Assembly (NCBI GenBank): GCA_030123625.1
Contig: CP126121.1
Span: forward strand, 453,001 to 517,000
Direction: 5' to 3'
Source of the DNA: Nitrospira sp.
Lineage (GTDB): Bacteria; Nitrospirota; Nitrospiria; Nitrospirales; Nitrospiraceae
Length of the DNA stretch: 64,000 nt
Translations under genes and position numbers: made by a program
Shown: positions 3,801 through 53,132 of the stretch, in pieces
How positions within the stretch are numbered: the stretch's first letter is position 1
Layout: each line of letters begins with the position of its first letter
Notes under the pieces: generated by a model
The model's database searches: none
The model's input: only the letters and a program-made list of their open reading frames with translations
What the model was told of the DNA's origin: nothing

Positions 3801-6800
3801 TTGCCGATGGCTTCGTCCGCCGTATACCCGAACACCTTTTCTGCGCCTTTGTTCCAACTCGTGATAATGCCCCGCAAGTCCTTACTGATGATGGCATCGT
3901 CCGAGGACTGGACGATGGCACTGAGCCTGACCGTCGCTTCCTCGGCCCGCTTCCGCTCGGTAATGTCTACCAGCATATTGACGCCGCCCACGATGTTGCC
4001 CTTGGCGTCGCGCAACGGCGTCGGATAAGGCATGAACCAGACGCGCGTGCCGTCTGGGCGCTCGGCGATTGCTTCAGCCCCGCGGACCGTCCGATTCTCC
4101 TTCAGTGCGATGGCCATCGGACATTGGTCGTGCGGCATCGGCGTGCCGTCGGGATAGTAGAGCTTCCAAGTCACGCACCACTCGTCTGTACCCAGCTCCG
4201 GCACGCGGCCGGAGAATTCCACGGCGGCCGGATTGAAGTGCGTGAGGCGGCCTTCGGCGTCGGTGGTGTAGATCGCAGCCGGCAACGCATCGATCATCTC
4301 GCGAAAGCGGGCTTCCCCCTCTCGCAGCGCGGCCTCGGCATCGCGCCTCATGCGGGCCATTTTCACGTGCGTCTCGACGCGCGCTAGCAATTCCTGGGCG
4401 CTGAAGGGCTTGATGAGATAGTCGTCGGCGCCCTGCTCCAGCCCTTCGACCCGGGATTCTTCGCCGGCTCTGGCCGACAGCAAAATGACCGGAATCATCC
4501 TGGTCGTAGGATCGTCGCGCAACGCCCGGAGTAAGCCAAAACCGTCCAGCCGCGGCATCATGATATCGGTCAGGACCACATCCGGCGGGTCGGCACGCGC
4601 CGCCTCTAAGGCGACTTGCCCATCGGCGGCCGCCAGCACCTCAAAGCGGCTACGCAGCAACCGGCCCACGTACTCCCGCATGTCGGCATTGTCGTCGGCG
4701 AGCAAGACGCGGGGACGGGAGTGCTGAGTCCTGAGTCCTGAGTGCCGAGTGCCCGAATCGGAACTGATCAGATCCGACGACTCGGCACTCAGCACTGAAC
4801 GCTCAGCACTTTCTCCGGACGGCAGCCACCGCGCCGCTTCCTCCACGAACGACATGGCGCCTGACGCCGTCGACATTTTGCCGTGAGTGGCGCCGATGTG
4901 TTGATGCGGCAGATGGCTCTTTCCCAGAGGAATGAACACCCGGAACGTGCTTCCTTTCCCATACCGGCTCTCGACGGAGACCGAACCGCCATGAAGCCGT
5001 GCCAATTCTTGAACGAGGGAAAGCCCAATGCCCGTGCCTTCATACGTACGACCTTGCGACCCCGCGACGCGATGGAACCGCTCAAAAATCTTTCCGAGTT
5101 GGTCATCCGGAATGCCTGTCCCTGTATCACGAACGGTCAGAATGACGTGACGCGCACTTTCAGGTCCCGATAACTCCGCACACTCATTTTCTAACTTTCC
5201 ACTGACCACTCCCCTACCACTGTCCGCTGATCCACTCGCCACTTCTTCCTTCAGACTCACCGCTATTTCGCCATTGAACGTAAACTTAAAGGCGTTGCTC
5301 AACAGATTGAGAACAATCTTTTCCCACATGCCGCGATCCACGAACACGGGCTCGGACAAGGGAGGACAATCGACAATCAGGGAAAGGCCGGCCTTCTCAA
5401 TGGCAGAGCGGAAGACGCTCGCCAAGTCGGTCGTCAATGCGGCCAAGTCCGTCTCTTCATAGACCGCCTGTGCCCGACCGGCCTCGATACGTGAAAAATC
5501 CAACAGCTGGTTCACCAGTTTGAGCAAACGCAACCCGTTGCGATGGACCAGATCGAGCTGTTGATACTGCGAGACGTCGAGCGAAGACGTGGCGTGGCCA
5601 AACTCCGCTTTCAACTGTTCCAGCGGGCCCAGCATCAACGTGAGAGGCGTCCGCAACTCGTGACTGACGTTACTGAAGAACGCGGTCTTGGCGCGGTCCA
5701 GCTCCGCCAACGCTTCGGCCCGTTTACGTTCTTCTTCATAGGCGCGGGCATTGGCAACGGCCGTGGCGATGTGACTGGCCAGGAGGTCCATGAACGTTTT
5801 GTAGTGGTCAGTAAACTCCAGCCGCGGGCTGACGCCCGTCACGACGAACCCCGCCGGCTGTGTCTGACCCGGCTTCGCCATCGGCAGGACGACGGCGCAC
5901 TGTGGTGACTCGGGCCACGCCCCACCTGGCAGCGGCCCGAGCCCTTGATCCAACTTCGCAACCACTTCGGCCCGTCCCGATTTCAGTACGGCACGCAACG
6001 GCCATCCAACCTGTGATCCGCCTGACTCGGACAAATCGACCCTTGACGGTGCGGCAAGCGAACCTTTCGGTAGGGCAGTAAACCCGGCCAGCCGAGCGGT
6101 CGTGCCGTCAGTGTCGAGCAGATAGATGACGACGAAAGGGAGGTCGTACGGATTCCGGGCAAGGATGTCGGCGGCGATCTGGCAAGCATCCTCGGCGGAG
6201 CCGATCTCGTCGCTTGTGCGGGCCAACAATTCCCGCAGTGTCCGCAAGCGCCGCTCGCTGATGGTCCGCTCGGTGTCCTCCGTGACGACGCACAGCATCC
6301 CGCCCACGCCACCCCTCTCGTCGGGAATGGGACTGTACGAGAAGGTGTGGTACGTCTCCTCCGGAAACCCCTTTCGTTCGAGAAACAGCAGCAGCCCCTC
6401 ATCCCACGTGGCCTGCCCGGAGCGGATGACCGACTCGGCACGGGGGCCAATGTCGCCCCAAATTTCCGACCAGACCTCACGCGCCGACCGGCCTAACGCC
6501 CATGGGTGCTTCGGGCCGAGAGTCATCTTGGCGTAGGCGTCGTTGTAGAAGAACGTGAAGTCCGGCCCCCATCCGAGCCACATGGCGTAACGGGAATTGA
6601 GCATAATCCGTAAGATGATCGTAAGACTTTGCGGCCATTGATTAACCGGACCGAGCGCGGTCTTCGACCAATCTTTCGCACGGATCAACTCGCCCATCTC
6701 CCCGCCGCCGGAGAGAAAAGCTGGATCGGATGTCGGCTCTTTGGGGTCTTTTTTTAGCAGATTGGATAATGGCGCGTGATCCACGGACCCTCGTCTACTC

Positions 6801-30337: not shown

Positions 30338-33300
30338 TCAATGGGATGAGGAGAGCTTGTCGGCGGAGGCGCCGACCTCCTGAACGATCGCATCATGCAG
30401 CTGATCGACCGCCGTATCTTTGGGAAGGACCGTGGCGGCACCGGCCCGCTTCATCGCATCGCTGTTATCGTCACCGGTGTTGACCGAGATCCCGATGACG
30501 GTCGTCTCCGGCCATCGGTTCTTGATGTGTGCCGTGGCATCGATCCCGCTCATTCTCGGCATATTGATGTCCATCACCACCACGCGCGGATGGAACTCCC
30601 CGACCAGCTGTACCGCCTCCGCACCATCCCGAGCTTCTGCGACGACATGCAGGTCGTCATAGGCATCCAACACGAAACGGAGGCCTTGCCGTACCATGGC
30701 ATGGTCATCAACGAGCAGAACGCGAGTAACTGCGTTCTTCTGGTGGAGTGCTGAGTGCTGAGTGCCGGGTGCTGAGTCGGGCAAGTGCTGAGTGTCCGAC
30801 TGTCCGGACTCAGGACTCAGCACGTTCGCCTCAGTACTCCTTGCCAAGGGCAAGACGAGCATCGCTGTCGTTCCCCGTCCCGGCGCCGACTGGATGTCGA
30901 AAGAGCCGCCCAATGCCCGCATGCGCTCCCGGATGCTGAACAGTCCGAACTTCGAGGAGATCCCGCCGCTAGGAGTTCCTTCAGCAGCAGCACCAAGCTC
31001 GAAGCCTTTGCCTTCATCACTCACGGTCACGCGCAGACTGTCATCGCGCTGCTGCATGAGGACGGTGGCTTTGTCCGTCCCGGCATGTTTGGAAGCATTG
31101 ATAAGGAGTTCGCGGACGGATTGAAAGAGCAACACGCGGTGAGCCTCCGGTAATTCAGGTTCGCGATTTTCGGGGACAAGAACCGTGACGGTCTGATTGT
31201 ACTTCCTGAGATGCTCTCCCAACCATTTGAATCCGGCGGCCAACCCGTAATCATGCAACACGGATGGACTGAGTTCCGCGACGAGCGTACGGCTATAGGT
31301 CAACGCCTCCGAGAGCACCTCGTCCACCTTCGTCATCATCTCTGCCGCAGCCGGCACGTCGGCGATCCGACGTTTCCCCTGTCCGATCATCATCTTCCCA
31401 TAGACCAGTAATTGTTGCAGATGATCATGGAGCTCGGTCGCCAACCGTTTGCGCTCCCGTTGCTCGGCCAGACTCAACTCGCTGGCCAGTGCCCGCAAGC
31501 GCTTTTGTGATTGCATGAGCTCGGCGGTCTTCATGCTGACTGTCTGTTCCAGCTCGACGTTCCAGCGCTGGAGGCACTGTTGGGCTTCGCGCAACGCTTC
31601 CTCGGCGCGGGCGCGTTCTACCGCCGCCCAGGTTCTCTCCGCCGTTTCCTGTAAGAGCGTGATTTCTTCCGTTTTCCACTGACGCGGTTCGGTGTGGTGA
31701 ACGCCGAGATTGGAGACCCAGCGACCGCCTTTGACGAGAGGAACGCCGACGGCGGACCGGACATGTAGGCCGGCGAAAGCCCTTTTATCCGCCTCTCGTA
31801 AATCCGTAGCCGCATTCACATCGGAGATGACGACCACTTCTCCGCGCTTTAATGTTTCTACCGTCGCGTCGAAATCCGCGGTAGGAAAACTGCCGATGAG
31901 TTTCGGCACCCGTCCGCTCGTGTAATTATCCTGTACGATCCACGTGTCGCCGTCCGGCGTCATATCGGCGTAAAACACGCGGTCGGCCTGCAATGACTCG
32001 CCGACGACGCACATCGCCGCCCGTTGAATCTCCAACGGGTCGGACAGCGGGCGCAAGGCATCGCTCAATTTCAAGATAAATTCCTGTCGCCGCTCGCTCA
32101 GTTTGCGCTCGGTGATATCGAGCGACACGCCGCTGAACCGAACAGGCTCTCCGGCATCGTTATACGAGAACCGTCCGTGGAGCGAGAGCCATCGCAATTC
32201 ACCGGTATCGGCTCGGTACATGCGATGTTCTTGCGCAAATAACCCCCGCTCGCGCTTCGCCCATTCGATCGCGGCCGTGTGACGGCCGCGATCATCTGGA
32301 TGCATCCGCTCGCGCCAACGCTCCAGCGACACCGGTCCGGTTTGCGTCTTGTAGCCCTGCATGGCGGCATGTCGCCGGTTCCACACCGTCGCCCCCGTTA
32401 GCCAATCGATGTCCCAAAAGCCGAGGTCCGCACCGTCCAAGGCCAATCGCAGTCGCTCTTCACTATCGCGGAGCTGATTTTCCACCTGCTTCCGCTCGGT
32501 GATATCCGTCGCGATCCCGAGTACTTGCCGTACCTGTCCTTCGGCGTCCCGTTGCCACACGATATCCCGACTGAGAAACCATCGATACGATCCGTCGCGA
32601 TGTCGGAAGCGATATTCCACCTGAGCGGGGACCCCGTCCTCCAATTCCTGAAAGCCTTCGAAATGCCGGAGCAATCGTATGGCATCCTCGGGATGTACGA
32701 CGGTCGGAATGAAGTCCGCCCCCAAGGCATGAGCTTCCTCCGGGCTGTAGCCCAATACGACCCCGGTGTGTCGATTCACGTAGACATTCCGCTGTTCTTG
32801 GAGATCGAAGATGTACAGTACACCGGGAAGCACGGACGCCATTTCGCTGATGAATCGATGGTTTTCCCGCAACTGCTCCTCGGCCCGCACAAAAGCATCC
32901 ACATCCGTCACCGATCCGACCCAACGTCGAATCGTACCTTGATCATCGCGCACGGGCAGGGCTTTCGCGATGACCCACGCATAGGTGCCGTCCGTTCGGC
33001 GCACCCGTTGCCGAGACTCGAAAGGCATGCCTCTCTCCAAACACTGGAGCCACCGGTCGAGATTGGGCGCCCGGTCTTCGGGATGTAGCGCCTCGGCCCA
33101 GCCGTGCCCCGCCACTTGCTCCGGTGTCTGTCCGGTAAACCGGCACCAATCCTGGCTGGTCCAGATGTTCCAGCCGGCGGCGTCGGTTTCAAAGAGGAAA
33201 CTCGGCACGGCTTCCGCCATCGTGCGGAACCGTGCTTCGCTTTCGCGCAAGGCGTACTCCGCTCGAGCACGTTCGGAGGACTCCTTGTAACGGGACATGA

Positions 33301-42082: not shown

Positions 42083-43866
42083 ACCATCAACCAGCAACCA
42101 GTGAAGCCCCTCAGATCCATGGTTTCGGCCTGATCGATGAACTCACGGCTCGCTTCGGCTCCGAGAGAATCCTGGCCGTTCAACCGACCAAAGATGAAAT
42201 CACGACCATCTGGATCCATAAGAACCGGCTCCGTGAAACCCTTTGGTATTTGAAATCTGCGATTCCTCGTCCGTTTCCGATGCTCTTCGATTTGAGCGCA
42301 ACAGATGAACGGCTGCGTCGAAACCATGCCGGGCCGGTCGGCACCTTTACTGTCTTTTATCGCCTCTTTTCGTTCGACCGAAATCAATCGCTCCGCATTA
42401 AAGTCTCACTCCGCGACGAGCCCTTCTCATTGCCCTCCATTGTGGATCTTTGGCCTAACGCCGATTGGTACGAACGCGAGGTGTATGACATGTTCGGCAT
42501 TCGGTTCGACGGCCATCCGTTTCTCCGCCGCCTCCTCATGCCTCCTTGGTGGGACGGTCATCCTCTCCGGAAAGACCATCCCGCGCGTGGGACGGAAATG
42601 GGCCGCTTCCAACTGCCGCCGGAAAAGCTTGCCATGGCACAGGAGGCGTTGCAGTTCAATCCCGACGACTGGGGTTTAGCCCACAGGCATCATGATCCGG
42701 ACTTCGACTATATGTTCATCAATCTCGGACCGGCCCATACCGGCACGCATGGTGTCTTGCGGCTTGTCACGCAACTCGCGGGCGAAGAAATCATCGACAT
42801 TGTGCCCGATATCGGTTTCCACCATCGAGCCAAAGAAAAGATCGCCGAGCGCCAGACCTGGCATACGTTCATTCCCTATACCGACCGTGTGGACTACCTC
42901 CAAGGCGTGCTCAACGAAATGCCCTACTGTCTCTCGGTCGAACGACTGGCCGGCATCACGGTCCCTGACCGGGCACAGGTCATCCGCGTCATGATGTGCG
43001 AGTTCTATCGCCTTGCCAGCCACCTCGTCTGGTACGGCACCTTCGCGCAGGACGTCGGCGCCCTCTCACCGGTCTTTTACATGTTCAACGATCGCGAGCG
43101 GATCCATGCCATCACGGAAGCCATCTGCGGCGGCCGCATGCACCCGAACTGGTTCCGTATCGGTGGCGTGTCCCAGGATCTTCCCGTCGGATGGGACAAA
43201 CTGGTCAGGCAATTCGTGGATTACTTGCCGAGCCGTCTGGATGAATACGAGCGCCTTGTCATGGACAATCCGATTTTCAAGCAACGGACTGTCGGTATCG
43301 GCGCCTTCTCGCTTGAAGACGCCATGGCGTGGGGCGCCACCGGACCGATGCTGCGTGCCTGCGGACTGCCGTGGGATCTGCGAAAAGTTCGGCCCTACTC
43401 CGGCTACGATCAGTTCGACTTCGACGTTCCGGTCGGTTCTCACGGCGACTGTTACGACCGGGCGGTGGTGCACATCCTGGAGATGCGGCAGTCGTTGCGT
43501 ATCATTCGGCAGTGCCTCGAACACATGCCGTCCGGTCCGTACAAATCGCTCGATTCTCATGCCACGCCTCCTTTGAAGGAACGCACGATGCACGATATCG
43601 AAACGCTCATCCATCACTTCCTGGGGGTGAGTTGGGGACCGGTGCTTCCGCCGGGCGAAGCGGAAGTCCCGACGGAATCGTCGAAGGGCCAGACCAGCTA
43701 TTATCTGACCAGCGACGGGGCACAAGTGTCGTACCGGACGAGAATACGCACCCCGTCGTTCGCGCACATTCAGATGGTGCCGTTTATGGCCCGCGGCGAA
43801 TTATTGTCCGATCTGCTGGCCGTCTTGGGCAGCATCGATTTTGTCTTGTCGGATGTGGATCGGTGA
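42079..43866 (+). CDS. nuoCD: NADH-quinone oxidoreductase fused subunits C and D
   Basis: 595 residues. The NuoC part (~1-180) has [18 protein letters not shown] and [13 protein letters not shown]; the NuoD part (~205-595) has [45 protein letters not shown] and the terminal [13 protein letters not shown]. The fusion is as in E. coli. It starts inside the nuoB stop (ATGA). A longer frame upstream to 41716 exists but is the out-of-frame shadow of nuoB. Together with NuoB it forms the quinone-binding pocket. A heptad hairpin fills the 87 bp after its stop. Confidence 0.96.
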
Positions 43867-43869
43867 AGA

Positions 43870-43949
43870 AGTGCTGAGTGCTCAGTGCTGGGTGCTGAGC
43901 ACAAAGCGAACTCGTTCTGAAACTCAGGACTCAGCACTCAGGACTTAGC
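43870..43949. repeat. Heptad-repeat hairpin filling the nuoCD-nuoE spacer
   Basis: Left arm: AGTGCTG AGTGCTC AGTGCTG GGTGCTG (43870-43897). Right arm: ACTCAGG ACTCAGC ACTCAGG ACTTAGC (43922-43949). It begins 4 nt after the nuoCD stop and ends 4 nt before the nuoE ATG, so it is essentially the whole spacer. Same word as the coding elements in kinases D and B. Confidence 0.9.
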
Positions 43950-43953
43950 ATTT

Positions 43954-44418
43954 ATGCTATCGGACATCGAACGCCACGAAATCGAAGAAGCCTTGAAACA
44001 TTACCCCGACAAACGAGCCGGTACCATCGACGCCTTGTTGCTCCTCCAACGGCGGCGAGGATGGATCTCGGATGAATCCCTCCTCGATATCGCACAATTT
44101 CTCGATATGACACGTGAGGATGTGGATGGGGTGGCGACCTTTTACAACCTGATCTTTCGGCAGCCGGTCGGACGCCATGTCCTCTTCATGTGCGACAGCA
44201 TCAGTTGCTGGATCATGGGATACGAGCGGGTACGGCATCAGTTGCACAGCCGCTACGGTGCGGATATGGGACAGACGACGGACGATGGTCGGCTAACGAT
44301 ATTGCCGATTGCCTGCCTCGGGCATTGCGAGCGGGCACCGGCGATCATGATCGATACCGATATCTATGGCAATGTGACTCCCGACAAGATCGAACGCATC
44401 GTGGAGAAATATAAATAG
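43954..44418 (+). CDS. nuoE: NADH-quinone oxidoreductase subunit E
   Basis: 154 residues. The [2Fe-2S] N1a ligands are FMCDSISCWIMG (C-x4-C) and ACLGHCERAPA (C-x3-C), normal spacing. The fold is thioredoxin-like after an N-terminal helical region (DALLLLQRRRGWISDESLLD). The ATG follows directly on the right arm of the hairpin; the nearest purine run is GGA 13 nt upstream, so no standard ribosome site is present. It works with NuoF in NADH oxidation. Confidence 0.95.
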   Translation: MLSDIERHEIEEALKHYPDKRAGTIDALLLLQRRRGWISDESLLDIAQFLDMTREDVDGVATFYNLIFRQPVGRHVLFMCDSISCWIMGYERVRHQLHSRYGADMGQTTDDGRLTILPIACLGHCERAPAIMIDTDIYGNVTPDKIERIVEKYK

Positions 44419-44432
44419 AGAAGTAAGGCAAA

Positions 44433-44474
44433 GGTTGGAGGTAGGAGGTTTGAGGCTTCCTACCTCTAACCTCA
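44433..44474. repeat. Heptad-repeat hairpin in the nuoE-nuoF spacer
   Basis: Left arm: GGTTGGA GGTAGGA GGTTTGA (44433-44453). Right arm: CTTCC TACCTCT AACCTCA (44456-44474), the reverse complement of GGT-words in the same 7-nt register. The word differs from that of the preceding spacer. The loop is only 2 nt, so the hairpin should be compact. The purine-rich arm contains GGAGGTAGGAGG, which resembles ribosome sites but lies 36-50 nt before the nuoF ATG and would be paired. Confidence 0.85.
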
Positions 44475-44489
44475 AGCTGGTTTCCAAAC

Positions 44490-45794
44490 ATGGAACATCC
44501 CCTCACCCAACACATCGCACGGGACGGCCGGTATCGGTCTTTGCAAGAGTATGGCAAGACCGGCGGCTACCGCAGCCTGAAGCGCCTGGGCGAGGGACTG
44601 TCTCCGCAAGATGTCCAGAGGCTCGTGACTGAATCGGGTCTACGCGGGAGAGGCGGCGCCGGATTTCCGACCGGCAGCAAGTGGAGCTTCGTCCCGATGG
44701 GAGCCGATGCGCCGAGGCCAAAGTACATCGTGGCCAATGCCGACGAGATGGAACCGGGTACGTTCAAGGACCGTGTGCTCATGGAGGGCGACCCCCACGG
44801 CCTGGTGGAAGGCATGATCCTCGCCGGCTATGCCATACAAGCGGAAGTCGGTTTCATCTTTCTACGCGGCGAGTATCATCTGTCCGCTCAATACTTAACG
44901 AACGCCGTTTCCGAAGCCTACAAGGAAGGGTACCTCGGAAGGGCGCTTCCGGGAACGGACTTTCGTTTCGACCTTCACCTCCATGCCAGCGCGGGCCGTT
45001 ACATCTGCGGAGAAGAGACCGCCCTGCTCAATGCCTTGGAAGGCAAACGGGCCATTCCCCGCGCAAAGCCTCCTTACCCTCAGATGGTCGGCCTGTGGGG
45101 CCGGCCGACCGTCGTTCAGAACGTCGAGACGTTGTACAACCTTCCTCACATCGTCAACCATGGCTCGACGTGGTATCACAGTCTCAGCCGCAGTAAAGAC
45201 GGCGGCACGAAACTCTACGGCATGAGCGGCCGCGTCACGCATCCCGGATGCTGGGAACTCCCTCTCGGGACCACGGCACGCGAACTGCTGGAACACTATG
45301 CCGACGGCATGTTCGACGGCTTCGGTTTTCGTGGACTGCTCCCCGGCGGCGCCTCCACGGCATTCCTCACCGAAGAGCACCTCGATTTACCCATGGATTT
45401 TTCTTCGATCCCACCGCAAGTGGGCCGGCTGGGAACCGGCACCATGATTGTGCTCGACGACCGTACCTGTCCGGTCGGATTCGTGCTCAATCTGGAAAAG
45501 TTTTTTGCCCGCGAGTCCTGCGGCTGGTGTACGCCCTGCCGGGAAGGACTGCCTTGGGTCGCGCGTCTATTACAGTGCTTCGAGGAAGGGCGTGCGACGA
45601 ACGATGATCTGACGTTGCTGGAGATGCATGCCGAACTTCTCGGCCCCGGCCATACGTTCTGCGCGTTGGCGCCCGGCGCAGTGGAACCTTTGAAATCAGC
45701 GTTGAAATACTTCCGCGACGACTTTGTGCGGCATATCCGCTTGGGGCAATGTCCCTGGAATGTGAAGGTGAAGCGGCAACAGGTGTTGGTGTAA
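44490..45794 (+). CDS. nuoF: NADH-quinone oxidoreductase subunit F
   Basis: 434 residues. GLRGRGGAGFPTGSKWSF is the FMN/NADH-binding glycine-rich loop, CGEETALLNALEGKRAIPR the second nucleotide motif, and ESCGWCTPCREG plus a later Cys (HTFCALAPGA) ligate the N3 [4Fe-4S] cluster. It is the NADH-oxidising subunit. No Shine-Dalgarno is evident before the ATG; the upstream arm of the heptad hairpin ends 15 nt before it. nuoG follows after 4 bp. Confidence 0.96.
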   Translation: MEHPLTQHIARDGRYRSLQEYGKTGGYRSLKRLGEGLSPQDVQRLVTESGLRGRGGAGFPTGSKWSFVPMGADAPRPKYIVANADEMEPGTFKDRVLMEGDPHGLVEGMILAGYAIQAEVGFIFLRGEYHLSAQYLTNAVSEAYKEGYLGRALPGTDFRFDLHLHASAGRYICGEETALLNALEGKRAIPRAKPPYPQMVGLWGRPTVVQNVETLYNLPHIVNHGSTWYHSLSRSKDGGTKLYGMSGRVTHPGCWELPLGTTARELLEHYADGMFDGFGFRGLLPGGASTAFLTEEHLDLPMDFSSIPPQVGRLGTGTMIVLDDRTCPVGFVLNLEKFFARESCGWCTPCREGLPWVARLLQCFEEGRATNDDLTLLEMHAELLGPGHTFCALAPGAVEPLKSALKYFRDDFVRHIRLGQCPWNVKVKRQQVLV

Positions 45795-45798
45795 TTCT

Positions 45799-48552
45799 AT
45801 GGCTTCCATCGTCGTTGACAACCGATCTTATACCGTCGATGAACGACAGAACCTGCTCGCGGCCTGTTTAGGCATCGGGCTGAACCTGCCGTATTTTTGT
45901 TGGCATCCGGCCATGGGATCGGTCGGGGCCTGTCGCCAATGCGCGATCAAACAGTTCAAAGACGAACAGGATCAACGCGGTCGCCTGGTCATGGCTTGTA
46001 TGACACCCGCCTCCGACGGCGCCCGCATTTCGATCGAAGATCCCGAAGCCAAGGCCTTTCGAGCGTCGGTCATCGAATGGCTGATGGTGAACCATCCGCA
46101 CGATTGTCCGGTCTGCGATGAAGGCGGTGAATGCCACCTGCAAGACATGACCGTCATGACAGGCCATGCCTACCGCCGCTACCGGTTTCCCAAACGGACC
46201 TATCGCGACCAGGACCTCGGCCCCTTCATCAAACACGAAATGAACCGCTGCATCCAATGTTATCGCTGCGTGCGGTTCTATCGGGACTACGCGGGCGGAC
46301 GTGATTTGAACGTCTTCGGTTCCCACGATGCCGTCTATTTCGGCCGGGAACAAGACGGCACCCTGGAAAATGAATTCAGCGGCAACCTTGTCGAGGTCTG
46401 CCCGACCGGCGTGTTCACCGATAAGACGCTGTTCCATCACTATACGAGGAAATGGGATTTGCAATCGGCCCAGTCGATCTGCCCCCATTGCAGCTTGGGA
46501 TGCAATACGACCCCGGGAGAGCGCTACGGTATCTTGCGCCGAGTCGTCAACCGCTACAACTCTCACGTCAACGGGTACTTCATCTGTGACCGTGGCCGGT
46601 TCGGATACGACTATGTCAACAGTGACGGCAGAATCAAGCGGGCGCTTGTACGGCCGACGCCCGACCACGCCGGCCCGGCAAGGCCTGAGGGAGTCCCCGA
46701 CGTCCTCGCTTCTGCGGCTGCTCGTTTACGGAGCGCGCGCGGGATCATAGGAATCGGCTCTCCCCGCGCGTCATTGGAGGCGAATGTCGCCCTTCGCTCG
46801 CTCGTCGGCGCCGGCAGGTTTTTTCTCGGCATCGGAGACCGTGAGCACCGGCTCCTCTCGACCATCCTGACTATTCTGCGAACCGGTCCGGTACCGTCTG
46901 CTTCGATACGGGAAGCAGAAGAGTCGGACGCCGTCCTCGTACTCGGTGAAGACCTGTTGAACAGCGCCCCCCGTTTGGCGCTCGCTCTCCTGCAATCTGT
47001 TCGACAACAGCCGATGCAGCGAGTGGATGAACTGAAGATATCCCGCTGGGACGATGCCGCAGTGCGCAACATCGTGCAGGGCGGACGCGGACCGCTCTTT
47101 TTGACCGGCTATCGGCGCACCTGGTTGCACGAATATGCGACGGAAAACTATTTCGCCGCCCCGGACGATATCGCCGGGCTGGGATTCGCCGTCGCACAGT
47201 CCATCGGCACGGACAATCCCACCATCACGAATGTCTCAAAAGAAGTACGCGAGCGGGCTCATCGCATCGCTGAAGCCTTGACCGGAGCCGAACGGCCGTT
47301 GGTGATCGCCGGCACCGGAAGCGGTTCGGATGCCGCGATCGAAGCCGCCGCCAATGTCGCGTGGGCTCTCCATCGCGTAGGGAAACGTCCCCGTCTCAGC
47401 TTCGTCCTTCCCGACTGCAATAGCCTGGGACTCGCCCTGCTGGGCGGTGGAACGCTCAACGACGCGTTCGAGTCGGTTCGGCGGGAACAGGCGGACGCGG
47501 TGATCGTCTTGGAGAACGACCTGTACCGCCATACCGAATCCGCGGCGGTCAATGCCTTTTTCGACGCCGCAAAAACCGTGATCGCCATCGACTCGTTCCA
47601 TCATCGCACGGCGGCGCGTGCCGACGTCCTTCTGCCGGCAGCCACGTTCCCGGAATCCGATGGGACCCTCGTCAATCACGAAGGCCGAGCGCAGCGGTTT
47701 TACCAAGTCTTCGTGCCGGATGGCGATATCATGGAAAGTTGGCGTTGGCTGAGGGATCTTGCTCGAACAACATCGGACTCGACAGGGGATCTGTCCGGTG
47801 TGGCCGCCTGGCAAACCTTTGATGATGCCGTCGCCGGTACGGCGGAGGCTGTTCCGGAGTTCTCGAAGATCAGAGAGGTGGCTCCCTCCGCCGGTCTTCG
47901 CATGGCCGGACAAAAGATTCCCCGACAGCCGGAGCGGTATAGCGGCCGAACGGCCATGATATCCCAGCTCACCGTCCATGAACCGCCGCCGCCGCCCGAT
48001 CCCGATACGCCGCTGGCCTTTTCCATGGAGGGTTATCGAGGACCGGTTGTGTCGCCGCTCATTCCGCAGTTCTGGGCTCCCGGATGGAATTCCGTCCAAG
48101 CCTTGAACAAATATCAGGACGAAGTCGGTGGTCCGCTGCGCGAAGAAATGCCGGGCGTGCGGCTGATTGAGCCGGTCGCTACGAAGACTCCATCGTGGTT
48201 CACGAACATCCCGCCTCCCTTTAGACCCGCCTATCGTCGGTGGCTGCTGTTGCCGCTGCCCGCTCTGTTTGGAAGCGAGGAATTGAGCAACCGATCGCCG
48301 GCCATCGCCGAACGGATATCGAAGCCGTTCATTTCGCTGCATCCATCGGATGGAGCTCGGCTCCGTCTTGAGGAAGGGATGGCGATTGAATTGACATTGC
48401 AGGGATCCACCTGTCGCTTGGGCGTACGTTTGGAATCTTGCACGCCGCCGGGCACGGCAGGCCTCTCCCTGGTGCATGAGGCATTCCATATGAGATTGCC
48501 GGCTTGGGCCGATCTTACCGAATCGATCAAAGCCGAACGGAGGGTGGCGTGA
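45799..48552 (+). CDS. nuoG: NADH-quinone oxidoreductase subunit G
   Basis: 917 residues. N-terminal [2Fe-2S] ligands in FCWHPAMGSVGACRQC, then HPHDCPVCDEGGECHLQDM (N5), RCIQCYRCVRF with CPTGVF (N4), and CPHCSLGCN with a later Cys in YFICDRG, the N7-type set found in E. coli and Thermus. The remainder is the molybdopterin-type fold without cofactor. It carries electrons from NuoF to NuoI. The stop overlaps the first copy of a duplicated nuoG-nuoH junction. Confidence 0.95.
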   Translation: MASIVVDNRSYTVDERQNLLAACLGIGLNLPYFCWHPAMGSVGACRQCAIKQFKDEQDQRGRLVMACMTPASDGARISIEDPEAKAFRASVIEWLMVNHPHDCPVCDEGGECHLQDMTVMTGHAYRRYRFPKRTYRDQDLGPFIKHEMNRCIQCYRCVRFYRDYAGGRDLNVFGSHDAVYFGREQDGTLENEFSGNLVEVCPTGVFTDKTLFHHYTRKWDLQSAQSICPHCSLGCNTTPGERYGILRRVVNRYNSHVNGYFICDRGRFGYDYVNSDGRIKRALVRPTPDHAGPARPEGVPDVLASAAARLRSARGIIGIGSPRASLEANVALRSLVGAGRFFLGIGDREHRLLSTILTILRTGPVPSASIREAEESDAVLVLGEDLLNSAPRLALALLQSVRQQPMQRVDELKISRWDDAAVRNIVQGGRGPLFLTGYRRTWLHEYATENYFAAPDDIAGLGFAVAQSIGTDNPTITNVSKEVRERAHRIAEALTGAERPLVIAGTGSGSDAAIEAAANVAWALHRVGKRPRLSFVLPDCNSLGLALLGGGTLNDAFESVRREQADAVIVLENDLYRHTESAAVNAFFDAAKTVIAIDSFHHRTAARADVLLPAATFPESDGTLVNHEGRAQRFYQVFVPDGDIMESWRWLRDLARTTSDSTGDLSGVAAWQTFDDAVAGTAEAVPEFSKIREVAPSAGLRMAGQKIPRQPERYSGRTAMISQLTVHEPPPPPDPDTPLAFSMEGYRGPVVSPLIPQFWAPGWNSVQALNKYQDEVGGPLREEMPGVRLIEPVATKTPSWFTNIPPPFRPAYRRWLLLPLPALFGSEELSNRSPAIAERISKPFISLHPSDGARLRLEEGMAIELTLQGSTCRLGVRLESCTPPGTAGLSLVHEAFHMRLPAWADLTESIKAERRVA

Positions 48553-48724
48553 TCGACTGGGAATCCACTGTATTCATCGCTCCGACGCATGAGATTCCCT
48601 GGGGGGGCAATTGCCGACTTGGGGTGATCTTACTAAATCGATCAAAGCCGAACGGAGGGTGGCGTGATTGATTGGGGACGAACCGGCTTCATCGTCGCGA
48701 CGATGCTCGGCAGCCTGCTCACCG
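48495..48724. repeat. 115-bp imperfect tandem duplication across the nuoG-nuoH junction
   Basis: The segment containing the nuoG tail, a CGGAGGG ribosome site and the GTG start of nuoH is present twice, offset by 115 bp (for example CGATCAAAGCCGAACGGAGG at 48524 and 48639). In copy 1 the GTG at 48549 opens a frame that begins MIDW like NuoH but ends after 40 codons. The working nuoH start is the copy 2 GTG at 48664. Third positions have diverged, so the duplication is not recent. Confidence 0.9.
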
Positions 48725-49629
48725 TCGCCGCACTGTTGATCTGGGTCGAACGTCGGCTGCTCGGAATCTGGCAGGAACGCTACGGACCGAATCGCGTGGG
48801 ACCGGGAGGGATTCTGCAATCACTCGCCGACATGATCAAAATTTTCACCAAAGAAGATTGGATTCCCCCCTTCGCCGATAAGGTCGTCTTCGTGCTGACG
48901 CCGGCCATCGTCGTCGTCACGACGCTGATGGCGTTTGCCGTCGTCCCGATCGCGCCCGGTTTTGTCGTGGCGGACATCAATATGGGGGTCCTGTTCTTTT
49001 TGGCCATGTCCAGCCTTGCCGCGTACAGCGTGATCATCGGGGGCTGGGCATCGAACAACAAGTTCGCGTTTCTCGGAGGCCTCCGCGCCACCGCACAACT
49101 CTTGAGCTACGAAGTCTTCATGGGCCTGTCGCTGATGGGGTCGGTCGTGCTGGCCAGCTCGTTCAACTTGAGCGACATCGTTGAAGCCCAGCGTCATCTC
49201 TGGTTTGTCGTGCCTCAGTTTTTGGGGTTTGTGGGATTTTTCATCGCCGGACTGGCTGAAGCGCACCGCGCGCCGTTCGACCTTCCGGAAGCGGAAACGG
49301 AGCTGGTGGCGGGTTACCATGCGGAATATTCCGGCATGAAGTTCGGCATGTTTTTCGTCGGCGAATACCTGAGCATCACGTTGCTCTCGGCGATGATCGT
49401 GATTCTGTTTTTCGGCGGGTGGCATGGGCCGGTGCTGCCGCCGGTCTTGTGGTTTCTTCTCAAGACCTTCGTGTTCATTGCACTGATCATCCTCGTACGA
49501 GCGACATGGCCGCGGTTACGGTTCGACCAATTGCTGTCCTTCGGCTGGAAGGTGGGAATGCCGCTCGCCGTCATCAATCTGTTGATTACCGGAGGAGTGG
49601 TGCTGGCTCGAATGGGAGAGGGACGTTAA
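48664..49629 (+). CDS. nuoH: NADH-quinone oxidoreductase subunit H
   Basis: 321 residues, eight membrane helices, GTG start 5 nt after CGGAGGG. Characteristic loops: [65 protein letters not shown] and [15 protein letters not shown]-like ([20 protein letters not shown]). It forms the membrane end of the quinone channel. The terminal TAA lies inside the first heptad of the next hairpin. Confidence 0.95.
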
Positions 49630-49695
49630 ACGTGAATCGTGAATCGCAAGAAGTTTCCTACGTTTAACGGTTAACGATTCACGAATAACGATTCA
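49624..49695. repeat. Heptad-repeat hairpin in the nuoH-nuoI spacer
   Basis: Left arm: CGTTAAA CGTGAAT CGTGAAT CGCAAGA (49624-49651), in which the nuoH TAA is part of the first word. Right arm: CGTTTAA CGGTTAA CGATTCA CGAATAA CGATTCA (49661-49695), five contiguous heptads all starting CG. The arms are complementary (GTGAATCG with CGATTCAC). It is the cleanest case of 7-nt register and has a third word family. Confidence 0.9.
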
Positions 49696-49712
49696 TGAAA
49701 AGCTGAAAAGCC

Positions 49713-50243
49713 ATGCGATATATCATCGATCTCTTGATGGGTCTCTGGATCGTCTTCAAACGGACGTTCAGCAAGCCCGTCACGGTTCAGTATCCCGAGG
49801 AACGACCCTATCTGCCGCCGCGTTGGCGGGGACGGATCGTGCTGACGCGCGATCCCGACGGCGAAGAGCGTTGCGTCGCCTGCTATCTCTGCGCGGCCGC
49901 CTGCCCTGTCGATTGCATTGCGCTGCAGGCCGCCGAAGACCCGACTTCCTATGATCGCCGATACCCGGACTTTTTCAGGATCAATTTTTCACGCTGCATC
50001 TACTGCGGATACTGCGAAGAAGCCTGTCCGACGTACGCGATCCAGCTCGTGCCGGATTTCGAGCAGAGCGAGTACGCCCGCCGCAATATGGTGTATGAGA
50101 AGGAAGACTTGTTGATCAGCGGGACCGGCAAATACCCCGGCTACAACTTTTATCGAGTGGCCGGCGTCAAGATTCGCGACAAAGATAAGGGCGAGGCTGA
50201 ACATGAATTCCCGCCCGTAGACGTGAAGAGTTTGATGCCGTAA
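49713..50243 (+). CDS. nuoI: NADH-quinone oxidoreductase subunit I
   Basis: 176 residues with two [4Fe-4S] ferredoxin motifs, [15 protein letters not shown] and [15 protein letters not shown] (N6a, N6b). The N-terminal amphipathic helix ([21 protein letters not shown]) anchors it to the membrane arm. It passes electrons to NuoB. The upstream sequence CTGAAAAGCC is a poor ribosome site. A 9-mer hairpin fills the 111-bp spacer that follows. Confidence 0.95.
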
Positions 50244-50265
50244 AGAAGGCAAGCTGGCGGGAAGA

Positions 50266-50340
50266 GCGAGACAGGCGAGACAAGGACGACGGAGGCACCT
50301 GGGGGACAATAGCGAGTCTCGCACTTCTCGCTTGTCGCGC
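50266..50340. repeat. 9-nt-periodic hairpin in the nuoI-nuoJ spacer
   Basis: Left arm GCGAGACAG GCGAGACAA (50266-50283). Right arm, read on the opposite strand from 50340 to 50314: GCGCGACAA GCGAGAAGT GCGAGACTC. Same two-armed plan as the heptad elements but the period is 9 and the loop is about 30 nt. Confidence 0.75.
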
Positions 50341-50354
50341 GTGAAGCCTGAATT

Positions 50355-50858
50355 ATGGAAGTCCTATTTTACATCGCCGCTTCGGTCACCGTCCTGGCGG
50401 CGTTCCGCGTGATCACTCACCTGCACGCGGTGCATGCCCTCCTCTATCTCATCGTCGCGCTGATCGCATTAGCCGTGATTTTCTATTTGCTGGGCGCGCC
50501 GTTCGCCGCCGCCTTGGAAATCATCATCTATGCGGGCGCCATCATGGTGCTCTTCATTTTCGTGGTGATGCTCCTGAACCAAGGCCCTTTAACCGTGGAG
50601 CAGGAGCGCCGTTGGCTGTCGCCCGGCATCTGGAAAGGGCCCAGCCTTCTGGCTCTCGTGCTGCTGGGAGAGGTGCTCTACATCATCATGGCGGACCCCG
50701 CGCCGCCGCACGATCTCGTCAGCATCCAGCCGAAGCAAGTGGCGATCAGCCTCTACGGTCCATATGTGATCGCCGTCGAACTGGCCTCGATGCTGCTGCT
50801 GCCCGGTTTGATCGGCGCGTACCACATGGGGCGGCGACTCGGAAGGGAGCGCCGCTGA
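50355..50858 (+). CDS. nuoJ: NADH-quinone oxidoreductase subunit J
   Basis: 167 residues, five membrane helices. Helix 3 region [25 protein letters not shown] is the diagnostic pi-bulge helix of NuoJ. The ATG has no purine-rich ribosome site. The stop overlaps the nuoK start by 1 nt (TGATG). Confidence 0.94.
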
Positions 50859-51157
50859 TGCTGACGACTCACGCATTGATCCTGGCGATGATTCTGTTCT
50901 GTGTGGGGCTCATCGGTATGCTGATGCGGCGCAATATTATATTCATGTTGCTCTCCATTGAAATCATGCTCAACGCCGCCGGTTTGGCGTTCATTGCAGC
51001 CGGCGCCCGATGGGGCCAGGCCGATGGCCAAGTCATGTACTTGCTCATCTTGACGTTGGCGGCGGCCGAGGTGTCGGTGGCGCTGGGGATCGTGCTCCAG
51101 ATTTCATCCCGGTTCCACACGTTGGATGCCGATGCGATCAGCGAGATGAAAGGATGA
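50858..51157 (+). CDS. nuoK: NADH-quinone oxidoreductase subunit K
   Basis: 99 residues, three membrane helices, the normal length. The conserved membrane glutamates are in [16 protein letters not shown] and [21 protein letters not shown] lies 9 nt before the ATG. A longer frame to 50612 is the shadow of nuoJ. Confidence 0.95.
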
Positions 51158-51159
51158 AA

Positions 51160-51224
51160 GCGCGAGGGGTGAGGCGATCTTGTGAGTCGTCATCTCCTCA
51201 CGCCTGACACCTCACGCCTTACGA
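51160..51224. repeat. Heptad-repeat hairpin in the nuoK-nuoL spacer
   Basis: Left arm GCGCGAG GGGTGAG (51160-51173). Right arm CTCACGC CTGACAC CTCACGC CTTACGA (51197-51224). The words are complementary (GGGTGAG with CTCACGC-type). A fourth word family. It ends 6 nt before the nuoL ATG. Confidence 0.85.
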
Positions 51225-51230
51225 TACGAC

Positions 51231-53132
51231 ATGCTGAAACTTCTGTGGCTCATCCCGGCACTTCCTCTCGCCGGCTTTCTGTGGTTGGCCGTGCTGGGCG
51301 GACGTTGTTCCCGCCGGCAGATCGCCTGGGTCGGGACCGGGTCCGTCGGCGCCGCAGCGCTGATCACCGGACTCGTCGCCTTCGAGTTTATCCCGCAGCT
51401 CTCCCGCACGACATCCTACCGCCAAGTCTCGTGGAGCTGGCTGGACACATCCGGCCTGACCGTGGAAATCGCCTGGCATCTTGATGCGCTGGCCTTACTG
51501 ATGTTGCTCGTCGTGACCGGCATCGGTTTTCTCATTCATCTCTATTCCACAAGCTATATGAGCGATGACGACGGGTACCGCCGATTCTTCGCCTATATGA
51601 ATTTGTTTGTGGCCGCCATGGTGACGTTGGTCCTCGCCGACAATCTGCTCCTTTTCTATGTGGGATGGGAAGGCGTCGGCCTCTGCAGCTACCTGTTGAT
51701 CGGTTTCTGGTATCGGGACTCTGAGAATGGAGCGGCGGCGCAGAAGGCGTTCATCGTCACCCGCATCGGAGATACGGCGTTGGCGATCGGCCTGTTCATC
51801 ATCTTTTCCCATCTGGGAACATTATCGATGCAAGAAGTCTCCATGCGTGCCGCCGATATGTGGTCCGTGGGATCGACGCTCGCCACCACGGTCGCAGCTC
51901 TTCTGTTGATCGGAGCGCTCGGCAAATCGGCGCAGCTCCCGTTACATGTATGGCTCCCGGACGCCATGGCCGGTCCTACGCCGGTCAGCGCCTTGATCCA
52001 TGCGGCGACCATGGTGACCGCCGGAGTCTACCTCATCGCTCGCATGCACGGCCTCTTCACCCTTGCGCCGACGGTGCAGCTTGCCGTGGGGGTCATCGGT
52101 GTCCTGACGCTCCTGCTTGCCGCCGTCAATGCACTGATGCAACGGGACATCAAACGTGTGTTGGCCTACTCCACGATCAGCCAAATTGGCTACATGTTTC
52201 TCGCGCTGGGGGTCGGAGCGTGGTCTGCGGCCTTGTTCCATTTTTTGACGCACGCCTGTTTCAAAGCGCTGCTCTTCCTCTCCGCCGGATCCGTGATCTT
52301 GAGCCTCCACCATGAGCAAGATATGTATCGGATGGGCGGGTTACGACGGAGCCTGCCCGTGGCCTTCTGGACCTTTCTCATCGGAGCGGCCGCTCTGTCC
52401 GGCGTCCCGCTTATCACATCCGGCTTTTACAGCAAGGACTGGATTCTTTGGTCGGCATGGTCATCGCCGTTCAGCAATGACTGGCTTTGGATCGGCGGCA
52501 TCATCGGCACCATGCTGACGGGCCTCTACAGCTTTCGCATGGTGTTTCTGGTGTTCTTCGGCGAACAGCGAACCAAGCCCGGTCCGGAGGCGGGGCTTGC
52601 CGTCTCCATTCCGCTGGTCCTGCTCGCCCTGCTTGCCCTGACGGTCGGATTCTTGGAGATTCCCAGAACGCTCGGAGACCTCCCGCTCTTCAGCCGTTAC
52701 CTGGGCCATACCTTGCCGAACCAAGCGGCCGTCCCGGAAGTGGAGATCGGAGAAGAAATCCGTAAGCAAATCGTGGCCGGCTTCATGTCGTTGCTCGGCA
52801 TCGGCTTGGCCTTCTCCGCGTTTTTCCCGAGAACCGACCCATCGGGCCGCACGATATCCCCTTCGTGGCGATATCACGTCGCGGCGCTATGGCAGAAAGA
52901 GTGGGGATTCGATTACACCTACGATCGCCTGTTGGTGCGGCCATGGCTTTCATTGACCGGCACCTCCGGCGATGCGGTTGATCGCGCGTATCAATGGCTG
53001 ATCGATGCGATCAGCCTGACGCACGGGCAATTCGTACGCACGCAGACGGGCAAGGTTCGGTGGTATGCCGCCACCTTGGCCGTAGGAGCCCTCGTCCTTC
53101 TTGGACTCTTTATTGGATTGCACCCTCGATGA
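51231..53132 (+). CDS. nuoL: NADH-quinone oxidoreductase subunit L
   Basis: 633 residues, about sixteen membrane helices, including the C-terminal extension that makes the lateral helix. Proton-channel signatures: FVGWEGVGLCSYLLIGFWY-like (LLFYVGWEGVGLCSYLLIGF), KSAQLPLHVWLPDAMAGPTP, SALIHAATMVTAGVYLIAR and LAYSTISQIGYMFLALG. It is the distal antiporter-like subunit. No ribosome site is seen before the ATG. The stop overlaps nuoM. Confidence 0.95.
   Translation: MLKLLWLIPALPLAGFLWLAVLGGRCSRRQIAWVGTGSVGAAALITGLVAFEFIPQLSRTTSYRQVSWSWLDTSGLTVEIAWHLDALALLMLLVVTGIGFLIHLYSTSYMSDDDGYRRFFAYMNLFVAAMVTLVLADNLLLFYVGWEGVGLCSYLLIGFWYRDSENGAAAQKAFIVTRIGDTALAIGLFIIFSHLGTLSMQEVSMRAADMWSVGSTLATTVAALLLIGALGKSAQLPLHVWLPDAMAGPTPVSALIHAATMVTAGVYLIARMHGLFTLAPTVQLAVGVIGVLTLLLAAVNALMQRDIKRVLAYSTISQIGYMFLALGVGAWSAALFHFLTHACFKALLFLSAGSVILSLHHEQDMYRMGGLRRSLPVAFWTFLIGAAALSGVPLITSGFYSKDWILWSAWSSPFSNDWLWIGGIIGTMLTGLYSFRMVFLVFFGEQRTKPGPEAGLAVSIPLVLLALLALTVGFLEIPRTLGDLPLFSRYLGHTLPNQAAVPEVEIGEEIRKQIVAGFMSLLGIGLAFSAFFPRTDPSGRTISPSWRYHVAALWQKEWGFDYTYDRLLVRPWLSLTGTSGDAVDRAYQWLIDAISLTHGQFVRTQTGKVRWYAATLAVGALVLLGLFIGLHPR

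Follow-up and report, generated by a model that had tools for sequence, protein, structure and literature searches.

Two-armed heptamer arrays in the nuo spacers of Nitrospira are best read as a multi-family variant of dispersed heptamer repeats

The cyanobacterial short tandemly repeated repetitive (STRR) heptamers come in several heptamer words, as do the Nitrospira elements that are the subject of this study, and we know of no two-armed convergent geometry for them. In the papers compared here, as far as their accessible parts go, heptamer repeats in bacteria have been reported word by word. For instance, the GGGAATC repeats of Xanthomonas form one word family of heterogeneous (GGGANTN)n arrays, in which positions 1-4 and 6 are conserved and four units are commonest; they lie mostly between genes of the same direction, with few between divergent genes and some within genes, include 70 convergent inverted pairs in Xcc and 75 in Xac, and have been studied as quadruplex formers (Rehm et al. 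2015, PMC4692102, where three Calothrix heptamers are also mentioned). The TAACTGA repeats of Beggiatoaceae comprise 169 sets of one word, which are direct, with one inverted case, and mostly just upstream of start codons (MacGregor 2015, PMC4679880). The paired sites of Geobacter metallireducens, with three to five tandem units of 7-8 nt, have been put forward as putative binding sites of regulators (Aklujkar et al. 2009, PMC2700814). N. moscoviensis is listed in a table of the RepRanger paper (PMC12306157), the accessible main text of which does not contain the terms heptamer, tandem or RAYT (REP-associated tyrosine transposase, with REP for repetitive extragenic palindromic). In the literature searched, which was mostly open-access, none of the titles listed described multi-word two-armed heptamer elements in Nitrospira. 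Here, we analyse such elements in the intercistronic spacers of the nuo operon of a Nitrospira sp. (genome G000; 4,691,675 bases in one contig, CP126121.1), which lies in a stretch of 64,000 nucleotides at positions 453001-517000 (the window). The closest NuoI proteins place the sequence in Nitrospira, the top match being that of N. moscoviensis (89%).

We consider it somewhat probable that these spacers are filled by several families of dispersed miniature repeats, which were placed by an agent and persist in tolerant spacers and linkers, and that the hairpin they form is a by-product. The elements appear to follow one plan, (GTNNNNN)n - loop - (NNNNNAC)n, in which a GT-phased array of 2-5 degenerate heptamers faces an array of the same motif. 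The positions of the nuo genes and spacers in the window were correct in a preliminary description of this sequence, and two-armed arrays are present, as described there, in five of the six nuo spacers longer than 70 bp (Table 1). That each of these spacers has a word of its own is true within this operon; genome-wide, the words belong to dispersed families. The 9-nt word described for the nuoI-nuoJ spacer is present, although in two copies only and weak when taken alone (lag-9 score 8); its type recurs in two other species, in the I-J spacer of G021, which belongs to the same spacer class, and in the CD-E spacer of G055.

The arrays are far more frequent than expected by chance. In 464 kb of the genome (the window and 20 evenly spaced stretches of 20 kb), 20 lag-7 arrays were detected, 15 of them with an inverted partner within 90 nt, compared to two and none, respectively, in one order-3 Markov control. 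Arrays and paired arrays at other lags numbered 19 and 11 at lag 14, 11 and two at lag 12, seven and three at lag 6, and none at lag 8. The autocorrelation at 7 nt, for which the preliminary description had proposed a test, is far above that of shuffled sequence. The same holds for the enrichment in same-strand spacers: among the 52 of 60-125 bp, delimited with a simple purpose-made gene caller that covered 71% of the bases, eight contain lag-7 arrays compared to 0.20 expected, while lag 14 was found in eight, lag 11 in one and lags 5, 6, 8, 9 and 10 in none. In the sampled genome, two-armed arrays occupy 9/11 nuo same-strand spacers of 45-160 bp and 3/64 of those elsewhere (Fisher p 9e-8), 1/13 convergent spacers and 0/8 divergent spacers.

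To the nuo operon of the window we added those of 19 other Nitrospira genomes and the second operon of G000, chosen as close NuoI matches rather than drawn at random from the 79 genomes. In these 21 operons, 48 of the 86 distinct nuo spacers of 45-160 nt are two-armed, against a mean of 0.1 in shuffles. When single periods are considered, 36 spacers have period 7, eight period 9, one each periods 6 and 8, and none periods 5, 10, 11 or 12; the total of 48 also admits period 14. By junction, two-armed arrays were found at 18/20 CD-E, 6/12 E-F, 5/19 H-I, 10/18 I-J, 9/16 K-L and 0/1 L-M spacers. Doubtful rows in this set are G016 (E-F, G-H and L-M distances out of range, I-J and K-L missing, long branch), G060 and G066 (contigs that stop within the operon region) and the H-I spacer of G034 (no stop codon in place); identical spacers of the near-identical G064 and G065 were counted once in the two-armed and folding counts.

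Each word that was tested proved to be a genome-wide family. For the CD-E element of the window, BLAST gave at least 36 matches within G000 (with 40 of 61 candidates scored and some elements hit twice); the H-I element has 16 there and is matched in 21 of the 76 genus genomes. Arrays of AGTSCTG (three units, at most two mismatches) gave 755 matches in the 76 genomes compared to 111 for the reversed pattern, and are matched in 67/76 genomes compared to 41/76 for this control; G000 has 100 matches compared to 23 in the control, and N. moscoviensis (G003) has none, while the single matches in genomes with few may be due to chance. In the nuo spacers of N. moscoviensis (L031/L138), two-armed arrays of GTCTATCTG type with a 9-nt period occur besides 7-nt and other words. 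The argument of the preliminary description from variable words against dispersed repeats is hence not supported, and one subfamily even shares both arms and loop at unrelated sites.

Within a family, the units are variants of a degenerate motif. In family A (AGTSCTG), G2 and T3 are conserved at 0.98 and 0.97 and position 4 is the most variable; in family C (CGTKAWH), C1, G2 and T3 are conserved at 0.97-0.99 while positions 4, 6 and 7 vary. Transversions exceed transitions (116:71 in A, 188:47 in C and 41:30 and 21:11 in the smaller families F3 and F5), which argues that the units represent a motif rather than simple decay. The geometry is strict. The GT-phased array comes first in 23:0 cases for A and 14:1 for C (one C locus counted twice), and 48 of the 55 arms in nuo have GT at an invariant phase, compared to 16 for TG, which has the same letters, and one for AC. 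The corresponding counts in the wider loci (73/96 lag-7 arms and 12/13 lag-9 arms) are, like the family sizes, biased towards A and C because A- and C-family queries had been used to obtain part of these loci; the nuo count is free of this bias. In family A, the outer unit border coincides with the element end in 26/32 left and 28/32 right ends, about as expected from a fixed end phase plus chance matches; in family C, where degenerate positions blur the test, it does so in 19/29 and 15/29. What the two arms have in common is a degenerate motif; they are not copies of each other. Accordingly, the claim that the second arm is the reverse complement of the first in the same register stands for the family motif and fails for individual units.

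Outside nuo, the A and C families are dispersed. Of 45 copies, 27 lie between same-strand genes, six between convergent and none between divergent genes, eight in called genes and four at locus edges. Among the eight intragenic copies, five are in frame between HATPase_c and Response_reg, one is found in an Lhr-like helicase, where it separates DEAD_assoc from WH3_Lhr, and two touch gene ends. In-frame linkers between protein domains are, in other words, also occupied. The helicase linker (L254-L282; 29 orthologues read by eye, of 30 loci returned) is 15-35 residues long and in frame, and its word families differ between species: many have CAGCACT-type arrays, several two-armed GTGAGGC-type arrays (e.g. 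G009, G028, G076, G061 and G032), a few other arrays, and some little or no array (e.g. G019, G077 and G034). Words are thus replaced at a coding site just as they are in the spacers. Some copies have also spread as whole units, because they share a loop at unrelated sites. In family C, 20 of 325 loop pairs are alike compared to none with shuffled loops; 15 of the 20 lack any flank match, three are at orthologous E-F sites and two have short flank matches, the pairs stemming from few elements and hence not being independent. C-family loops were found in both orientations. In family A, 17 of 465 loop pairs are alike (one with shuffled loops), and 10 of the 17 have flank homology, including the CD-E spacers of both nuo operons of G000.

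Similar arrays occur beyond the genus. Among 80 nuoI loci from many phyla, the lag-7 arrays that have an inverted partner number at least 19 compared to none in the control, and those at lag 9 at least five compared to one. Paired lag-7 arrays were present in at least nine loci, namely 4/7 from Nitrospira, Manganitrophus, one acidobacterial contig, one deltaproteobacterial contig and two Bacteroidales contigs. The acidobacterial locus (L040; contig QHZO01000058.1) holds six of the 19 paired arrays, with two-armed GTCAAAG-, GTCCGTG- or AAGTGGC-type heptamer arrays in the H-I, I-J and L-M spacers and at one further site; it is the sole acidobacterial locus with several elements, and all nine of its arms have the GT phase, while the Bacteroidales arms do not. 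A search of viral contigs with NuoE found no relative.

Between related species, the spacers at one junction are often unrelated. In the 20-21 operons, we distinguished seven spacer classes without mutual alignment at CD-E, eight at E-F, five at H-I, six at I-J and eight at K-L, array-free classes included. The fewest class changes required at these junctions are 10, 9, 5, 7 and 13 on the nuoG tree, and 7, 10, 4, 7 and 10 on trees of the 600 nt beside each junction, which suggests that some swaps travel with the flanks, as in recombination, and that many do not. When operons with a flank identity of 0.92 or more and spacers of 30-160 nt were compared in pairs, the spacers at CD-E, E-F, I-J and K-L were unrelated (z <5) in 23/56 pairs, some of which have flanks 0.94-0.99 identical; at H-I this applied to 0/25 pairs, and the genomes concerned carry an array-free spacer that drifts normally. 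In this comparison, as in the spacer classes and trees, G064 and G065 are both included. G021 is a mosaic, in that it shares the spacer class of the window at H-I and I-J while its nuoI and nuoJ flanks, up to 300 nt, are 98-100% identical to those of G055. Part of the swapping, thus, looks like homologous recombination between lineages. At the nuoI-nuoJ junctions of L139 and L141, flank identity is 98-100% over the first 300 nt to either side and 70-94% farther out, and the spacers are wholly different; this pair may have undergone a swap or recombination very recently.

By contrast, close relatives keep an element with ordinary point drift, as in the case of CD-E in G015, G017, G060 and G078, arguing against continual rewriting. 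The preliminary description had proposed as a test whether words are replaced while the geometry is retained, and this outcome was obtained for orthologous spacers in relatives. Arrays also differ by whole units between relatives. G017 and G018 differ by one 7-nt unit at an orthologous element, as found with a detector that is stricter than that of the 86-spacer count and misses the CD-E and I-J spacers of G015, which are element-like by eye; the helicase linkers of G000/G056 and G031/G053 differ by 21 nt, i.e. three units, with the frame kept.

Table 1. Heptamer elements and related spacers in the window
Feature	Position in window	Strand	Description	RNA folding z
nuoCD-nuoE spacer	43867-43953	+	two-armed, AGTSCTG (A) family; GT-arm ~43870-43897, AC-arm ~43922-43950	-7.6
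nuoE-nuoF spacer	44419-44489	+	two-armed, word AGGTTGG/AGGTAGG; arms ~44432-44455 and ~44458-44477	-5.3
nuoG-nuoH spacer	48553-48663	+	from tandem duplication of nuoG end and nuoH start; outside the element class	-0.7
nuoH-nuoI spacer	49630-49712	+	two-armed, CGTKAWH (C) family, inner loop CGCAAGAAGTTTCCTACG; arms ~49631-49646 and ~49665-49695	
nuoI-nuoJ spacer	50244-50354	+	two-armed; 9-nt word GCGAGACAG x2 (~50266-50283) facing ~50311-50339	-2.9
nuoK-nuoL spacer	51158-51230	+	two-armed, GTGAGGC-type word; arms ~51162-51176 and ~51196-51223	-2.4
A-family element	1289-1350	+	intragenic (locus L014), in frame, kinase-receiver linker	
A-family element	4719-4810	+	two-armed; within a called gene by one gene calling, outside by another	
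A-family element	30743-30820	+	two-armed; intragenic (locus L164), in frame, kinase-receiver linker	

Three further observations concern these sites. First, the sixth long nuo spacer, G-H, comes from a tandem duplication of ~115 bp (window 48495-48702; copies 82% alike). Of the 20 other operons fetched, 19 have no spacer at this junction but an overlap of 4 nt between nuoG and nuoH, and the 20th (G016) is out of range. Second, G000 has a second nuo operon (CD to N; C1:4019556-4036556, L144) with an element set of its own; the CD-E spacers of the two operons are 0.89 identical and their flanks 0.76, and the K-L spacer of the window resembles that of the second operon (z 9.4). Third, five kinase-receiver hybrids (L159, L164, L169, L179 and L014) have an in-frame linker made of a repeat element, as if kinase and regulator genes had been fused across an intercistronic element.

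In the model that we favour, spacers and linkers would tolerate the elements, and a mobilising activity would place new copies through recognition of the phased motif. Homologous recombination would carry part of the allelic swaps, and the hairpin, whether in RNA or DNA, would result from two facing motif arrays rather than being a tuned regulator of nuo. Several observations speak against this model. Inspection by eye of a set of element borders showed no target-site duplication, and no mobiliser was found, the parent transposase having been sought as Y1_Tnp only; the mobilising agent may since have been lost or may belong to another family. Most loops of family A have no counterpart at unlinked sites, which is unlike a typical burst of miniature inverted-repeat transposable elements (MITEs). 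Random insertion explains neither the nuo enrichment nor the re-occupation of the same junctions and of the helicase linker by unrelated families, and these two features could reflect selection for something at those sites.

Such selection is at the centre of an alternative that we regard as unlikely but worth keeping in mind, in which the elements are protein-binding arrays, with one DNA- or RNA-binding protein per heptamer and facing arrays kept at operon junctions. In its favour, some positions of the units are fixed and others allow few letters (AGTSCTG, CGTKAWH), the units are independent, the geometry is strict, the same junctions are repeatedly occupied with nuo enriched, and Csp proteins, one per heptamer, have been proposed for the TAACTGA repeats (PMC4679880). 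However, elements also lie in in-frame protein linkers, sister species have unrelated words at the same junction, and close relatives show ordinary point drift.

It is improbable, in our assessment, that the elements are RNA hairpins selected for intercistronic control by way of mRNA stability, processing or translational uncoupling. For their composition, the predicted hairpins are strong (z -7.6, -5.3, -3.1, -2.9 and -2.4 in the five element spacers of the window, compared to -0.7 for G-H), element spacers fold better per nt than non-element nuo spacers (-0.346 vs -0.248), and same-strand spacers are preferred. However, facing units pair no better than when their order is shuffled, the shuffle being at least as good in 484/500 cases for A (32 elements), 467/500 for C (29), 360/500 for F3 (eight) and 208/500 for F5 (four), and the folding energy of elements equals that of unit-shuffled versions (mean z 0.03, n=17; 0.14, n=22). 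Moreover, the sense strand gives the more stable RNA in 25/48 element spacers (p 0.32) compared to 25/38 non-element nuo spacers (p 0.03), in the one alignment folded only 1/14 predicted pairs shows a two-sided change with an unfavourable covariation term, and copies are in frame inside proteins. On the basis of unit shuffles, folding energies and pair changes we reject a covarying RNA hairpin, and a tuned hairpin finds no support in them. Similarly, we reject a known structured RNA family for positions 43000-52000, where an Rfam scan gave three matches, all far under the gathering score.

We give little credence to the possibility that the arrays are heptamer microsatellites generated by replication slippage, with the second arm arising from fold-back template switching. 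While the differences of one unit between G017 and G018 and of 21 nt in the helicase linker would fit slippage, the similarity of neighbouring units does not exceed that of units from different elements (5.46 vs 5.62 in A, 5.09 vs 5.29 in C, 4.85 vs 5.15 in F3 and 4.94 vs 4.99 in F5), supporting that slippage is not the main source. Nor are the arms mutual copies, and the strict GT-first geometry and periods of almost solely 7 and 9 also count against it.

Equally doubtful is a word-agnostic machinery, dependent neither on Y1 nor on RVT_1 nor on Ku, that would act at permissive gaps, where it would write or install GT-phased heptamer arrays in convergent orientation; lineages would differ in their words, with period, polarity and two-armed plan fixed. 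If true, it would account for independent units, unmatched arms, the replacement of entire spacers with no visible remnants and the like behaviour of a coding linker, and the conserved loop of the C subfamily counts against it, at least for those copies. The appeal of writing by a reverse transcriptase is that convergent arms and independent units would follow from it; RVT_1 matches were found in 31/76 genomes and in none of G000, N. moscoviensis and G064, and the lack of a match in G000 and N. moscoviensis rules out reverse-transcriptase or telomerase-like writing as a requirement. Ku is present in 9/76 genomes, and end joining by Ku is ruled out as a requirement because, for example, G015, G017, G018 and G021 carry elements without it. 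Indeed, all the genomes named here as lacking Y1_Tnp, RVT_1 or Ku carry nuo elements.

Finally, REPINs (paired inverted REP sequences) mobilised by RAYT, a Y1 transposase, are very improbable even though the elements have two inverted arms with a loop, are mostly extragenic with 0/45 copies between divergent genes, and occur in a genus in which 61/76 genomes have a Y1_Tnp match, because N. moscoviensis and G064 carry nuo elements without such a match, which rules out RAYT mobilisation as a requirement, because a two-armed lag-7 array is missing from all four Y1 loci in G000, and because compensatory arm changes, which have been described as common in REPINs (PMC3116915), are not seen here.

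Taken together, the observation in the preliminary description is confirmed, while its interpretation is only partly supported. One architecture, with a period of 7 or 9, a GT phase and convergent arms, is common to unrelated word families that replace one another at the same junctions and, with the reading frame kept, inside a conserved gene. Because this architecture can be separated from the sequence, both the cause that fixes the period and the mover become testable. Caution is also warranted in annotation, since intercistronic hairpins and low-complexity linker peptides (e.g. SALSTQHSAL) in Nitrospira can be repeat-derived rather than regulatory or domain sequence.

Among known systems, REPINs and REP sequences share with the Nitrospira elements two inverted arms with a spacer and a dispersed distribution, and have conserved REP arms, RAYT linkage and compensatory changes (PMC3116915), whereas the Nitrospira arms are heptamer arrays for which neither the link nor the compensation was found. 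Rickettsia palindromic elements are small palindromic repeats in frame inside proteins, like some Nitrospira copies, and are ~150 bp long, with no mention of heptamer phasing in the accessible part of the text (PMC10969869). The C subfamily with a shared loop resembles MITEs in that whole elements are copied to unrelated sites, while family A mostly does not. The Beggiatoaceae TAACTGA repeats have in common with the Nitrospira elements the many intergenic heptamer arrays and some intragenic ones (PMC4679880). The paired sites of Geobacter metallireducens are similar in that most are paired on opposite strands at variable distance with several classes per genome, and the accessible part of their description does not mention the word turnover and in-frame linkers found in Nitrospira (PMC2700814). 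The Xanthomonas repeats are the closest. As in Xanthomonas, the Nitrospira units are 7 nt long, degenerate, typically about four in number, dispersed and mostly intergenic, and form convergent inverted pairs with the G-rich arm first. The preliminary description did not recognise the two-armed form from known repeats; it is not entirely without precedent, since part of the GGGAATC heptamers lie in convergent pairs (PMC4692102). Unlike Xanthomonas, Nitrospira has many word families per genome with a shared GT phase, unrelated families at one junction and, judged from words and motifs alone, no single GGGAATC quadruplex word. The elements are best read as a multi-family, fast-replacing variant of the known dispersed heptamer repeats, to which the GGGAATC convergent pairs of Xanthomonas come nearest.

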